From Thermodesulfovibrio sp. (GTDB lineage: Bacteria > Nitrospirota > Thermodesulfovibrionia > Thermodesulfovibrionales > Thermodesulfovibrionaceae): a stretch of DNA of 64,000 nucleotides. The notes under the pieces were generated by a model. The model saw only the letters and a list, made by a program, of their open reading frames with translations. It had not been told where the DNA came from and did no database searches. Of this stretch, positions 52,000-59,540 are shown piece after piece (the first letter of the stretch is position 1; each line of letters opens with the position of its first letter). The translations under genes and the position numbers were made by a program. The stretch lies in NCBI GenBank assembly GCA_020725335.1, contig DYFF01000001.1, positions 1 to 64,000 on the forward strand, given 5' to 3'.

Positions 52000-53892
52000 A
52001 TGAAAAAGAACATAAAAAAGCTTATTTATCTATTACTTAATGACAAAGATTCTTCTCAAAGAAGATATGCTGCTGAAGAATTATCCCAATATGATGAAAG
52101 AGTTATATATCCACTTATTAAGGCATTGAAAGATGAAAGCCCTGCTGTACAGGATGCAGCGACACAGTCATTAATTGCAGTTGGAACATCTGAGGATGAA
52201 GATAGATTTCTTACTAATCCGGGAGAGCTTGTTACTTATATGGTTATACCTCTTCTCAAAGAAGAGGAGGCTTATTTGAGAAATACCGCTTTGCTTATTC
52301 TTACAGAAATAGGGAGTAAAGCTCCTGAACTTATTTATCAACTTCTTAAAGACAAAGACCCTGATGTTAGAAAGTTCAGCCTTGACCTTATAGCTGATAT
52401 AAAAACAGGGTTTGACGGAGAAAGAATCGTTCCACTTCTTAAAGATTCAAATGCCAATGTAAGAGCTGCAGCAGCAAGAGCAATAGGAGAATTAAGATAT
52501 GAAGGAGCTGTTTCAGCATTAATTGAGAGTCTCAATGATGAAGAATGGGTTGCTTTTTATGTGCTTCAAGCTTTAGCATCTTTACAAGCAGAAGAGGCTT
52601 CCGATGCTATAGGAGAATTACTTCTCAGTTCAGATTCCTTATTAGTAAAGGCAGAAGCAATAGAAACTCTTGGCAAAATTGGAACACAAAAGGTTATTGC
52701 ACCTTTATTAAAATATTATCCAGTAGCCACAAAGGATGAAAAAAAAGAAATAATCAAGGCATTAATAAGGGTTGAGGCTATTCCAAAAGAAGCAGATATT
52801 AAGGATGAATTGATTTCTTTACTTAAAGACGGAGACTGGGATGAGAAAACGTTAGCACTTAAAGGCATAAAAATAACTAATTTAACAGAAGCCGTTCCTT
52901 TTATGGTTGAGGAAGCTGGCAAGCTTGATCCTTCATGCTTTGATTATGATGAAAAAATAGATATTATTCAAGATACGATTTTAAATATTGACTCAGAAGA
53001 TGAATTAATATTTTTAATTGAAAAAGACAAACTAAAGTACAGAGCAAAGGCATTTGTTATTAATACTCTTGGAAAAATGAGAAGTAATAAAGCCATACCA
53101 ATTCTATTAAGATTTCTTGAGGATATAAAAAGAGATGTTAGAATAGCTTCTGCAAGAGCTCTTGGTAATATAGGTGATAGAGAAACAATACAACCTCTTG
53201 TTAATCGCAGTGTTGAAGATGCTGATGTTAATGTTCGCAAGGCTGCTATAGTGGCACTTGGAATGATTAAAGTCAAAGAAGCTTATAATCCGCTATTAAA
53301 TCTTCTTGAAAAAGAAACATATCCTGATGTTCTTGAGGCTATAGTTAATTCTTTAATTGAAATAGATGAGGGAAAATTTTTAAGCAATCTTAAATCTTAT
53401 AAAACCGAAGTAAAACAGGCTCTTGCTAATATTACCTATTCGATGGATATTTTAAATATGCTACTTCAATGTGACAGCACAGAGGTAAGAAAATCTGCTG
53501 TAATGGCTCTTGGAAGGATTACAACAGATGATGCTATTTCCAAACTAATAGAGCTTTTATCTTCAGAGGACAAAGAAATAAAGAAATCAGCTATTTCAGC
53601 ATTAGGAGAAGCACAGCTTTGTTCAGATATACTCTTTGACTGTTTGAAGGACGAAGACCCGTGGATAAGATATTATGCTGTAAAGGCAGTTAAAAAAGGT
53701 AGCGATCCAGAAATTTTAATTGAAAAATTAACTCCTTTACTTGATGATCCTTTCCCTCCAGTAGTCATAGCCGTTATAGAGGCTTTAGGCACAACAGGTG
53801 GTGGTGAGGTATATGAAATCCTTTACTCTAAAAAAGACCACCCCGATAAAAAGATAAGAGAGAAAATTGAGGAGGTGTTAAGTAGAATATGA
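52000..53892 (+). CDS. HEAT-repeat protein in the chemotaxis operon
   Basis: A 630-residue protein made almost entirely of HEAT/PBS-lyase type helical repeats, for example DGERIVPLLKDSNANVRAAA, ARALGNIGDRETIQPLVNRS and VRKSAVMALGRITTDDAIS. About 15-18 units can be discerned. There is no signal peptide or membrane segment, so it is cytoplasmic, and no catalytic residues are recognised. It starts behind its own promoter and overlaps cheR by ATGA, so it is translated together with the chemotaxis genes. A scaffold role at the array or motor is a guess from context. Confidence 0.85.
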   Translation: MKKNIKKLIYLLLNDKDSSQRRYAAEELSQYDERVIYPLIKALKDESPAVQDAATQSLIAVGTSEDEDRFLTNPGELVTYMVIPLLKEEEAYLRNTALLILTEIGSKAPELIYQLLKDKDPDVRKFSLDLIADIKTGFDGERIVPLLKDSNANVRAAAARAIGELRYEGAVSALIESLNDEEWVAFYVLQALASLQAEEASDAIGELLLSSDSLLVKAEAIETLGKIGTQKVIAPLLKYYPVATKDEKKEIIKALIRVEAIPKEADIKDELISLLKDGDWDEKTLALKGIKITNLTEAVPFMVEEAGKLDPSCFDYDEKIDIIQDTILNIDSEDELIFLIEKDKLKYRAKAFVINTLGKMRSNKAIPILLRFLEDIKRDVRIASARALGNIGDRETIQPLVNRSVEDADVNVRKAAIVALGMIKVKEAYNPLLNLLEKETYPDVLEAIVNSLIEIDEGKFLSNLKSYKTEVKQALANITYSMDILNMLLQCDSTEVRKSAVMALGRITTDDAISKLIELLSSEDKEIKKSAISALGEAQLCSDILFDCLKDEDPWIRYYAVKAVKKGSDPEILIEKLTPLLDDPFPPVVIAVIEALGTTGGGEVYEILYSKKDHPDKKIREKIEEVLSRI

Positions 53893-54737
53893 GCACCTTA
53901 ACAGCAACTGCTTCAGTAATAGGTGAAGACACCTTTAGACAGCTTAGGGATTTTATTTATGAAAAAACAGGCATATATGTTCCTGATAACAAGAAATATT
54001 TTCTTGAAAACAGGCTCAGCAGAATTATTAAAGAGAAAAATTTTCGTAATTATGAAGATTATCTATATTATTTGAAATACAGTTCAAATAAACAGGACAT
54101 AGCGAGACTTTTTGATGCTGTAACTACAAATGAAACTTTTTTCTTTAGAGAACCTCAACAATTTGAAGTATTAACAAATAATCTGATCCCTCAGATTGTC
54201 AAAGAAAATTCACAGATGGGACGAAAAGATATAAAAATTTGGTCTGCTGCTTGTTCTACAGGAGAAGAACCCTATACAATAGCCATGATTTTACTTGAAA
54301 AACCAGAACTTGTCAGCATAAGAAAAGAGATTTATGCTTCAGATATAAGTGAGTCTGTCCTTATGTCTGCAAAAAGGGCAATGTATGGAGGCTATTCTGT
54401 GAGAAATATCCCTCCTCAATACATGGCAAAGTATTTTAAAGACTCAGGAGGAATTTATGCTCTCTCAGACATGGTGAAATCTATAGTAAAATTTATGAAT
54501 ATAAACCTTATTGAAGAAAGAGAAGTAAAACAATTAAAAGGTATGGATGTGGTATTTTGTAGGAATGTTTTAATATATTTCGATGACAAGGCAAAGAAAA
54601 GAGCAGTATCATTAATATATGATGTGCTTAGACCAAAGGGATATCTATTCGTAGGTACTTCAGAGAGTTTGCACAATGTAACAAGAGCTTTTAGACCTGT
54701 GATAATAAACAAAGTAATTGCATATCAAAAAGTTTAA
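53889..54737 (+). CDS. cheR: Chemotaxis methyltransferase CheR
   Basis: A 282-residue SAM-dependent glutamate methyltransferase. The N-terminal helical domain is followed by TTNETFFFREPQQFEVL and the SAM-binding WSAACSTGEEPYTIAMI, with DVVFCRNVLIYFDDKAKK in the catalytic fold. It methylates receptor glutamates and opposes CheB. No C-terminal TPR is present. It overlaps the HEAT-repeat gene. No receptor gene is in the window. Confidence 0.96.
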   Translation: MSTLTATASVIGEDTFRQLRDFIYEKTGIYVPDNKKYFLENRLSRIIKEKNFRNYEDYLYYLKYSSNKQDIARLFDAVTTNETFFFREPQQFEVLTNNLIPQIVKENSQMGRKDIKIWSAACSTGEEPYTIAMILLEKPELVSIRKEIYASDISESVLMSAKRAMYGGYSVRNIPPQYMAKYFKDSGGIYALSDMVKSIVKFMNINLIEEREVKQLKGMDVVFCRNVLIYFDDKAKKRAVSLIYDVLRPKGYLFVGTSESLHNVTRAFRPVIINKVIAYQKV

Positions 54738-54750
54738 TTGGAGGGAAAGC

Positions 54751-55131
54751 ATGAAGGTTCTCGTAGTAGATGATGATAAAACAACAAGGAAAATGCTCTC
54801 TCTTATCTTGAAAAGTAAAGGTTATGAAGTGGTAACTGCTGAAAATGGCATGGATGGACTTCAAAAATTAGGAATTGAACAGATAAACCTTATTCTTACA
54901 GACATGAATATGCCATACATGGACGGCATAGAGTTTATAAAGCAAGTAAGAGCAAATCCTGAAATATCACATATTCCAATTGTAATGCTTACCACAGAAG
55001 CAGATGAGGAGGAAAAACAGAGAGCATACAAAGCAGGTGTTGATGATTATCTTGTTAAACCTGCTACAGGAGAACAGATTGTGGAAAGTATGAAAAGAAT
55101 TATAAAGAAAATTTTTGGTAAAAAGGAATAG
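54751..55131 (+). CDS. CheY-like single-domain response regulator (first copy)
   Basis: A 126-residue receiver. The acidic pocket is VVDDD, the phospho-acceptor Asp is in LILTDMNMPYMDGIEF, and the signalling residues are in VMLTTEADEEE and DDYLVKPATGEQIVE. The start at 54751 is chosen for its GGAGGGAAAG ribosome site; a longer frame would overlap cheR. It resembles CheY but has TTEAD rather than a VTA segment. It may be a phosphate sink or a second output beside the CheY at 55141. Confidence 0.9.
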   Translation: MKVLVVDDDKTTRKMLSLILKSKGYEVVTAENGMDGLQKLGIEQINLILTDMNMPYMDGIEFIKQVRANPEISHIPIVMLTTEADEEEKQRAYKAGVDDYLVKPATGEQIVESMKRIIKKIFGKKE

Positions 55132-55140
55132 GAGGCAAAG

Positions 55141-55545
55141 ATGTTTAATTTTAAGATAAGAGTTCTTGTGGTAGATGATTTTCCAACAATGCGAAGAATA
55201 ATAAAAAATCTACTGAAACAGCTTGGATTTGAAAATATTGATGAAGCTGAAAATGGTGAGGATGCTCTAAATAAATTAAAGAGTGGTGAGTATGGACTTG
55301 TTGTTTCTGATTGGAACATGCCTGTTATGGAAGGAATAGAACTCTTAAAAAGCATTAGAAATGACCCTCAATTAAAAGACATTCCCTTTTTAATGGTTAC
55401 AGCAGAGGCGGAAAAGGAAAAGGTTATTGAGGCAATAAAAGCAGGCGTGGATAATTACGTAGTTAAGCCATTTACAGGTGAGGTTCTTAAGGAAAAGCTC
55501 GAAAAAATTGCTCAAAAGAAACCTTCTCTTAAAGGAGGACAATGA
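55141..55545 (+). CDS. cheY: Chemotaxis response regulator CheY (second copy)
   Basis: A 134-residue receiver very close to classical Che[21 protein letters not shown], the acceptor Asp in [31 protein letters not shown] and [16 protein letters not shown]. The DWNMP and KPFT signatures match enterobacterial CheY, so this is the best candidate for binding FliM and CheZ. Its stop overlaps the cheA start. Confidence 0.94.
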
Positions 55546-57260: not shown

Positions 57261-57285
57261 ACAAAAAGGGAAGGAGATATAAAAG

Positions 57286-58470
57286 ATGCGACAGTGCATA
57301 GGTTTTCTTTTAAATGAAAATGAGTATATTATTCCTATTCTAAAGGTGCAAGAGATAATAAAAATACCACAGATTACTAAAATTCCAGGAGTTCCCTATT
57401 ATGTGGAAGGAGTTACTAATTTAAGAGGTAGAGTTATTCCTGTATTAAATTTAAAAAGAATTTTAAATCTTGCAGAAGAAACTCAAGGTAACAAAGTTGT
57501 TGTCATCTCAACGGGTAAAATAACTTTTGGAGTCTTAGTTGATAACATAACTGGTGTTGTAAACATTGATGAAAATAATGTGGAACCTGCAGAGGAATTT
57601 TTACAGCATGGAGACAATCATATAGAAGGTGTGGCAAGAATAAACGATAGATTACTGATTTTGATAGATATAAAAAAGATAATACCTACAGAAGATCAAG
57701 CTCTCTTTGAAGAAGAAATCCTTGATATTCATGAAGAAGAAGATAAAGTTGAAGTAGTTAAAAAGGTAACAAGCATGGGTGGTGAAATTACAGTAAAAGA
57801 ATTAGTAGACCCGGTAAAATTTTATGAAGACAAGGGAATGACAAGAGATGACCCGAAATATTCGCTCTTAGAGGAGATTGTTAATTTTATGAATACAGTC
57901 TCTCAAGGTGATTATGCAAAAGCAGATCAAATAATGAGTAGCATTATTCAAAAAAGCCAGAGTGATTTATTTAAAGAAGTTGGTAAAGTTGCGAGAAAGC
58001 TTCATGATTCTCTAAAAAGTTTCAGAGAAGCCTTTGACCCTCGTTTAAAAGAAATGGCAACAGAACAGATGCCAAGGGCAGTTGATCAACTGCAGATGGT
58101 GATAAACAAAACAGAGGAAGCAGCCAATAAAACAATGGAAATAGTTGAAAAATATATTCTTAAGATGGATGACCTTGCAAATCATATTAGGGAAATTCAA
58201 GGACCTGAAGCTTCAGTAAAATACTTGAAAGAGTTCAAAAACTCTCTTGAAGATGACTTGACAGAAATTCTTACAACCCAGTCTTTTCAGGACTTAACTG
58301 GGCAGGTTTTAAAGAAAGTTATCAAACTCGTGGGAGATCTTGAGGTAGAGCTTTTAAAGCTTATTACAACTTTCGGATTAAAATTTGAAGAGAAGAAAAC
58401 ATTAACCAAAGAAGTGGAAAAGGTAACTCAAGAAGATGTAGACGATTTGCTAAAGGAATTTGGTTTTTAA
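57286..58470 (+). CDS. CheW-CheZ fusion: array coupling protein with CheY-P phosphatase
   Basis: A single 394-residue frame. Residues 1 to about 140 form a CheW domain (CIGFLLNENEYIIPILKVQE; GVTNLRGRVIPVLNLKRIL). After an acidic linker (about 141-175), residues about 185-394 match CheZ: VGKVARKLHDSLKSF at 232-246, a long helical hairpin, and the catalytic segment SFQDLTGQVLKKV (333-345). There Asp 336 and Gln 340 correspond to the CheZ Asp143 and Gln147 of E. coli. The CheY-binding tail QEDVDDLLKEFGF closes the chain (382-394). Between cheA and cheB in one operon. Both halves look complete, so it should tether phosphatase activity to the CheA-receptor array. Confidence 0.93.
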   Translation: MRQCIGFLLNENEYIIPILKVQEIIKIPQITKIPGVPYYVEGVTNLRGRVIPVLNLKRILNLAEETQGNKVVVISTGKITFGVLVDNITGVVNIDENNVEPAEEFLQHGDNHIEGVARINDRLLILIDIKKIIPTEDQALFEEEILDIHEEEDKVEVVKKVTSMGGEITVKELVDPVKFYEDKGMTRDDPKYSLLEEIVNFMNTVSQGDYAKADQIMSSIIQKSQSDLFKEVGKVARKLHDSLKSFREAFDPRLKEMATEQMPRAVDQLQMVINKTEEAANKTMEIVEKYILKMDDLANHIREIQGPEASVKYLKEFKNSLEDDLTEILTTQSFQDLTGQVLKKVIKLVGDLEVELLKLITTFGLKFEEKKTLTKEVEKVTQEDVDDLLKEFGF

Positions 58471-58484
58471 GGAGATATAAAAAT

Positions 58485-59540
58485 ATGATAAAAGTACTCG
58501 TTGTTGATGATTCTGCATTCATGAGAAAAGCTTTATCATCCATGCTTCAAGAAGACCCAGAGATAAAGGTTGTAGGAACTGCAAGGGATGGGGTTGAAGC
58601 TATACAGATGATTCAGGATTTAAGACCCGATGTTGTTACAATGGATGTGGAAATGCCAAGGATGGATGGAATAACAGCTCTTAAAGAAATAATGCAAAAA
58701 TGTCCTGTCCCTGTAATCATGGTGAGTTCTCTAACAACTGAAGGAGCAAAAGTTACTATTGAAGCTCTTGAGCTGGGTGCAATTGATTTTATTCCTAAAA
58801 ATCTTTCTGAACTTTCTGTTAATATTGTAAAAATAAAGGGAATGCTTCTTGAAAAGATAAAGACTATTGGGAAAAGAGGACTTATAAGAAGAAAACCAAT
58901 CATTAAAACACAAGAGCCAAAAATTGAAACTCCAAAGATTGAACCTCCTCTAAAAAGAATATCTACAGAAAGGAAAGTGGGGATTGTATCTATTGGGACA
59001 TCTACAGGAGGACCAAAGGCTTTACAAGAGATAATTCCAAAACTTCCAAAGGATTTTCCAGTACCAATCGTGATTGCTCAGCATATGCCGCCTAATTTTA
59101 CAAAACCTTTTGCTGAAAGACTTGACCAGTTGAGTCAACTTTCTGTTAAAGAAGCAGAAGAAGGAGAAGCTATCAAGCCTGGAACTGTTTATATTGCTCC
59201 AGGAAGAGGACATATGAGACTAAAAAGAAGGGCTATTGAAACATTAGTCTCAATATCTGAAGATAAAGAGGATTTTATATATCGACCGAGTGTAGATGCT
59301 TTAATGCTATCAGTCGCAGATTGTTTCCCTGGCAGAAGTCTTGGGATAATTTTAACAGGAATGGGAAATGATGGAGCAAAGGGATGTAAAAAAATAAAAG
59401 AAACAGGTGGAAGAGTATTTGCTCAAAATGAGGAAACATGTGTAGTATATGGTATGCCAAGGGCAGTTGTTGAGGCAGGTATAGCTGATAAAGTAGTGCC
59501 TCTTGAGGAAATAGCAGGTGAAATAATAAATGCAGTTTAG
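58485..59540 (+). CDS. cheB: Chemotaxis glutamate methylesterase/deamidase CheB
   Basis: A 351-residue two-domain protein. The N-terminal receiver has VVDDSAFMRK and the acceptor in DVVTMDVEMPRMDG. The methylesterase domain (about 165-351) has the catalytic Ser in SIGTSTGGPKALQE, His in IVIAQHMPPNFTKPFAERL and Asp in LTGMGNDGAKG. It removes methyl groups from receptors after phosphorylation by CheA. It follows the CheW-CheZ fusion by 14 bases with its own AAGGAGATAT ribosome site. Confidence 0.97.
   Translation: MIKVLVVDDSAFMRKALSSMLQEDPEIKVVGTARDGVEAIQMIQDLRPDVVTMDVEMPRMDGITALKEIMQKCPVPVIMVSSLTTEGAKVTIEALELGAIDFIPKNLSELSVNIVKIKGMLLEKIKTIGKRGLIRRKPIIKTQEPKIETPKIEPPLKRISTERKVGIVSIGTSTGGPKALQEIIPKLPKDFPVPIVIAQHMPPNFTKPFAERLDQLSQLSVKEAEEGEAIKPGTVYIAPGRGHMRLKRRAIETLVSISEDKEDFIYRPSVDALMLSVADCFPGRSLGIILTGMGNDGAKGCKKIKETGGRVFAQNEETCVVYGMPRAVVEAGIADKVVPLEEIAGEIINAV

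Follow-up and report, generated by a model that had tools for sequence, protein, structure and literature searches.

We analysed a window of 64,000 nt (contig DYFF01000001.1 of GCA_020725335.1, Thermodesulfovibrio sp., positions 1–64,000 of the forward strand). Its plus strand carries, in this order, a HEAT-repeat gene, cheR, two receiver genes, cheA, a gene termed here cheWZ, cheB and an HDOD gene (Table 1). Genes resembling flhA, flhF, flhG and fliA lie before this run and flgF/G-, flgA- and flgH-like genes after it, the flagellar names being assigned by Pfam families together with position. Because flagellar genes flank it on both sides, we take the run to be the flagellar chemotaxis cluster. 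The che clusters of L070, L071, L072 and L074, from several families of the order and class, likewise begin with a HEAT-repeat gene. In the window CheA, the CheY-docking P2 domain was not detected, and about 80 Glu/Lys/Pro-rich residues lie between the Hpt and dimerisation domains. An internal cheA start at codon 82 was considered as a source of CheA-short, but the purine-rich sequence there is just two bases 5′ of the ATG.

Table 1. Features of the chemotaxis cluster and of related loci; positions refer to the window unless another locus is named.
Feature	Position	Strand	Basis
HEAT-repeat protein gene, 630 aa, directly upstream of cheR	52000–53892	+	
cheR	53889–54737	+	Pfam
Second receiver (cheY-like) gene	54754–55131	+	Pfam Response_reg
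cheY, probable substrate of the fused CheZ	55141–55545	+	Pfam Response_reg
cheA: Hpt, dimerisation, ATPase, CheW-like P5	55542–57260	+	Pfam
AAGGAG, likely ribosome-binding site of cheWZ	57271–57276	+	Sequence
cheWZ, CheW-CheZ fusion gene, 394 aa	57286–58470	+	Open frame, Pfam, kept in 61 genomes
CheW domain, residues 3–134	57292–57687	+	Pfam PF01584; fold match to CheW in 6s1k
Interdomain linker and extra helices, residues 135–226	57688–57963	+	AlphaFold2 model
CheZ helical hairpin core with shortened tip, residues 227–362	57964–58371	+	Pfam PF04344, models, span count
DLTGQ, catalytic Asp 336 and Gln 340	58291–58305	+	Alignment position
C-terminal helix QEDVDDLLKEFGF region, residues 382–394, CheY-binding tail by homology	58429–58467	+	E. 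coli CheZ alignment, model
cheB	58485–59540	+	Pfam
Second CheWZ copy, L180	6903–8081 (locus coordinates)	–	
Second CheWZ copy, L181	6627–7817 (locus coordinates)	+	
Three-CheW protein	G007:C29:5266–6696		
Three-CheW protein	G012:C1:107012–108439		
Three-CheW protein	G015:C121:6660–8087		

An earlier note on this DNA had read a single uninterrupted CheW-CheZ frame between cheA and cheB. This was borne out: the ATG, nine bases downstream of AAGGAG, opens 394 codons, and both Pfam domains score above their cut-offs. The CheW profile matches residues 3–134 with 119.9 bits (cut-off 23.5), and the CheZ profile matches two stretches, 227–305 and about 313–394, with 113.2 bits together (cut-off 30.7). 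The earlier claim that CheZ is complete has to be qualified: profile positions 78–105, around the hairpin tip, are unmatched. Within residues 185–394, where the earlier note had placed CheZ, the profile covers 227–394. No Response_reg match was found within CheWZ.

An AlphaFold2 model, built from an alignment of 34 sequences, predicts the CheW domain with confidence, and fold comparison matched this part to the CheW chain in the core signalling unit of E. coli (6s1k_C, E 7e-13). In the linker, the model places a weakly predicted small beta sheet (144–174) and two helices (190–206 and 210–224); confidence here is in the 60s, and no other part of the protein is less conserved. We claim no strict linker motif, because the regular expression GGE..VKE matched just 28 of 55 proteins. 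The CheZ half is modelled as a hairpin of helices 252–303 and 308–362 followed by a C-terminal helix (382–391), and gave the same hairpin when modelled alone. Its comparison with PDB folds listed generic helical hairpins only, 1kmi not among them.

Conserved residues and the hairpin tip

Four residues of E. coli CheW known as coupling-mutation sites, V36, G57, R62 and V108, have equivalents that do not vary among 55 fusion CheWs. In the CheZ half, D336 and Q340 correspond to D143 and Q147 of E. coli CheZ; the phosphatase site had been placed correctly, and the Asp-Gln pair is invariant across 35 CheZ sequences. Likewise, the C-terminal tail QEDVDDLLKEFGF, proposed earlier as CheY-binding, aligns with QDQVDDLLDSLGF of E. 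coli CheZ and contains the modelled C-terminal helix.

The hairpin, in contrast, is 21 residues shorter than that of E. coli CheZ. Measured from the conserved TEEAA motif to the FQD motif, it spans 58 residues in CheWZ; E. coli CheZ and the majority of gammaproteobacterial homologues have 79. The tip tryptophan was found in none of the 52 fusions measured versus 60 of 66 other CheZ proteins. In E. coli the hairpin tip is the CheA-short binding site (PMC7750401); the enterobacterial-type CheA-short-binding tip, D(D/E)WF, is absent from CheWZ, and this tip trait is not CheZ family-wide. The shortening is graded: in the fusions of families f3, f7, f11 and f14, this span measures 68–75 residues. 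A short tip alone is no proof of a replaced tether, because the CheZ of alphaproteobacteria is likewise short in the hairpin and devoid of the CheA-short site, yet is not fused to CheW (PMC7750401). The proposal in the earlier note that CheZ reaches the array by another route fits the conserved fusion taken together with the loss of the CheA-short-binding tip.

Two genomes of family f12 (G171 and G295) carry a second CheWZ copy in which the active site reads FQDLTGR, the catalytic Gln being replaced by Arg; in G171 this copy is located away from the che cluster. Possibly the second copy is an adaptor whose phosphatase is dead.

Distribution and ancestry of the fusion

The search for the same architecture in other Nitrospirota, as the earlier note had proposed, recovered it in 61 of 296 sampled genomes, with both halves matched at 34–86% identity. 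All but one of these (G091) belong to the class of the window, and in the relatives no stop or frameshift separates the domains, the fusion frame being intact. Compared with the closest congener, amino acid identity of the CheW, linker and CheZ parts is 0.89, 0.67 and 0.89, and dN/dS is 0.05, 0.20 and 0.03 respectively, values good only to an order of magnitude because dS is near saturation. By these ratios, the CheW and CheZ halves are under strong purifying selection.

Full CheZ matches in the order and class lie in frames of about 390–480 aa; the ones examined carry CheW as well. Two exceptions were viewed: the CheZ of G192 is of a different type and has no CheW, and the G293 match is a fragment located where a contig ends. 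Several genomes of the window's order have no CheZ of any kind, so CheZ is dispensable in some relatives. A window-type fusion was also present, among the matches listed, in MAG SKS1.bin8, which is named Deltaproteobacteria (L095, 1–1056, plus strand, at a contig end); this reflects either mis-binning or transfer, the two being indistinguishable.

CheW-CheZ proteins also occur in two further Nitrospirota families, f20 and f26. The f26 fusions (L193, L195, L196, L199 and L204) comprise 375–386 aa, and the nearest relative of their CheZ is the stand-alone CheZ found in f24. In family f28 (L081–L084, L198, L206, L209 and L212), CheZ follows a very worn CheW-like N-terminus, which in two members falls just under the Pfam cut-off; the active site is FQDLVGQ in those read. 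The f28 fusion may have lost array binding. Stand-alone CheZ is found in families f24, f27, f30, f32 and f33, and in f27 CheV adjoins cheA alongside the stand-alone CheZ.

In the CheZ tree, no single clade unites the CheZ domains of the window-type fusions with those of f20 and f26. Specifically, the CheZ domains reject a single origin of window-type and f20 fusions (p-AU 8e-6), as they do a single origin with f26 added (p-AU about 1e-119, a value not to be taken literally), and the f20 and f26 CheZ domains do not group either (p-AU 2e-4). A tree with the window-type fusion CheZ as one clade and gammaproteobacterial CheZ outside it was allowed (p-AU 0.57). In the CheW tree, window-type fusions form one clade (95/99) apart from stand-alone CheW, and f20 and f26 group apart from them (89/82); one clade of all fusion CheWs was not rejected (p-AU 0.245). 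An earlier CheW tree without f26 had placed f20 with the window-type fusions at 82%, a grouping that we consider unreliable because adding f26 moved f20. Two readings of these trees remain: either CheW was joined to at least three CheZ lineages, or an old fusion was followed by splits and domain exchange.

CheW, phosphatase and receptor genes of the genome

The window genome (assembly of 1.80 Mb, 99.9% complete) has five chemoreceptor genes and five CheW domains: in CheWZ, in the adjacent CheA, in a stand-alone CheW on contig C20, and in a CheA and a short CheW on contig C2. The latter two belong to a second chemosensory system (G000:C2; L068, 9022–12028), which comprises a CheA with a C-terminal receiver, the short CheW-like protein and a receiver-like gene. 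Congeners encode a single-frame protein, about 500 aa long, that contains three CheW domains (Table 1). By Pfam, the only CheZ in the genome is the fused copy; CheX, CheC and a second CheZ were not found in it. The fused CheZ is therefore the only recognisable CheY-P phosphatase of the genome.

That there is no separate cheW, as had been noted, is true of the window and not of the genome, in which a stand-alone cheW lies beside a chemoreceptor gene on another contig (G000:C20:110433). In relatives, stand-alone cheW is often inside the che cluster, adjoining cheWZ or after cheB (L070, L071, L074 and L096–L100), and the stand-alone CheW of the window genome groups with these cluster CheWs in the CheW tree. 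Since a stand-alone CheW coexists with it, CheWZ would work beside a CheW, as CheV does, and is probably an extra, CheV-like adaptor that brings a phosphatase into the array. Alternatively, CheWZ could be the main CheW of the flagellar array and place phosphatase on most CheW positions, leaving the stand-alone CheW to serve other receptors. The absence of any other cheW from the window genome's flagellar cluster, and the location of the stand-alone gene on a different contig next to a chemoreceptor gene, favour this alternative; however, we regard it as unlikely, given that the orthologous cheW of relatives shares a cluster with cheWZ and that the window's CheW groups there.

CheWZ as a candidate array phosphatase

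We consider it likely that CheWZ is an array adaptor carrying its own CheY-P phosphatase, in which the covalent CheW-CheZ link substitutes for the enterobacterial contact between CheA-short and the hairpin tip. Judged by domain content and conserved residues, CheWZ would localize to the array: its CheW domain would enter the CheW/CheA-P5 ring under the chemoreceptors, beside ordinary stand-alone CheW, and the linker and helical stalk would keep the CheZ dimer near CheA, the site of CheY-P production. The C-terminal helix of CheZ would capture CheY-P, and the Asp-Gln chemistry would remove the phosphate. Because E. coli CheZ is dimeric, a CheWZ dimer would by analogy contribute two CheW domains and could link positions within the ring. 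Collectively, the repeated joining of CheW and CheZ, the retained coupling, catalytic and CheY-binding residues and the lost tip are most likely to reflect tethering. Co-location of kinase and phosphatase would result in even CheY-P along the cell and in a fast, steep response. In published E. coli models and experiments, CheZ at the receptor cluster lowers the CheY-P gradient, whereas cytoplasmic CheZ makes one (PMC1447658, PMC2673030), and CheZ at the cluster sharpens the response (PMC2673030). A local CheY-P sink, as suggested earlier, is a fair description; these models predict the reverse of the spatial gradient that was suggested along with it.

The CheW domain might do more than place the phosphatase, namely relay the receptor state and switch CheZ activity. 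One signal would then drive kinase and phosphatase in opposite directions, and such useful control would be a reason for at least three CheW-CheZ unions in one phylum. This agrees with the repeated evolution or persistence of the union and with a partly conserved linker (dN/dS about 0.05–0.2), but seems improbable for a linker that is the least conserved part, is modelled with such low confidence and gives no sign of a rigid coupling path. It is very improbable that an internal start yields free CheZ as well and makes the tether partial: the window gene has GAGGAG 12 bases upstream of an ATG at codon 202, but this Shine-Dalgarno-like sequence reads GAAGAG or GAAGAA in congeners and is also changed elsewhere in the order, several of these relatives lack the Met, and the candidate was rejected for this lack of conservation. 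An assembly or sequencing artefact merging two genes is ruled out, to near certainty, by the intact fusion frames of relatives, the identical junction being present in the 61 sampled genomes and, among the matches listed, in named records of another collection.

The proposed tethered phosphatase combines features of several known systems. CheWZ shares the catalytic Asp/Gln, helical hairpin and C-terminal CheY-binding tail with E. coli CheZ (PF04344, 1kmi), which is, however, a stand-alone protein of 214 aa whose tip binds CheA-short, whereas CheWZ adds CheW and a linker before CheZ. It resembles the CheW adaptor (PF01584) in fold and conserved coupling residues but runs on into CheZ, and the fusion CheWs form their own clade. 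As in CheV, its CheW domain is coupled to a module that affects how far CheY is phosphorylated, and both proteins occur alongside a stand-alone CheW (PMC4742279); the partner is a receiver domain in CheV and the CheZ phosphatase in CheWZ, and we rejected membership of CheV because CheWZ has no receiver domain. CheA-short in enterobacteria and ChePep in Campylobacterota also recruit CheZ to the pole or array (PMC7750401), but as non-covalent partners, whereas the link in CheWZ is covalent and runs via the adaptor. We found no description of a CheW-CheZ protein, or of a CheZ fused in such a way, in the open-access literature searched. The architecture is probably listed in domain databases. Its parts are known; their union, undescribed there, is recurrent in one phylum.

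It has long been asked why CheZ is kept at the receptor array; in E. coli, the question has been approached through CheA-short and hairpin-tip mutants. CheWZ offers a modular natural case, in which the phosphatase is joined to an adaptor, the contact with CheA-short has been lost and the genome yielded no further known CheY-P phosphatase. As its linker can be cut or lengthened, the effect of placement becomes accessible. Whether there were several fusions or several splits, array placement of the phosphatase looks like a recurring target of selection.
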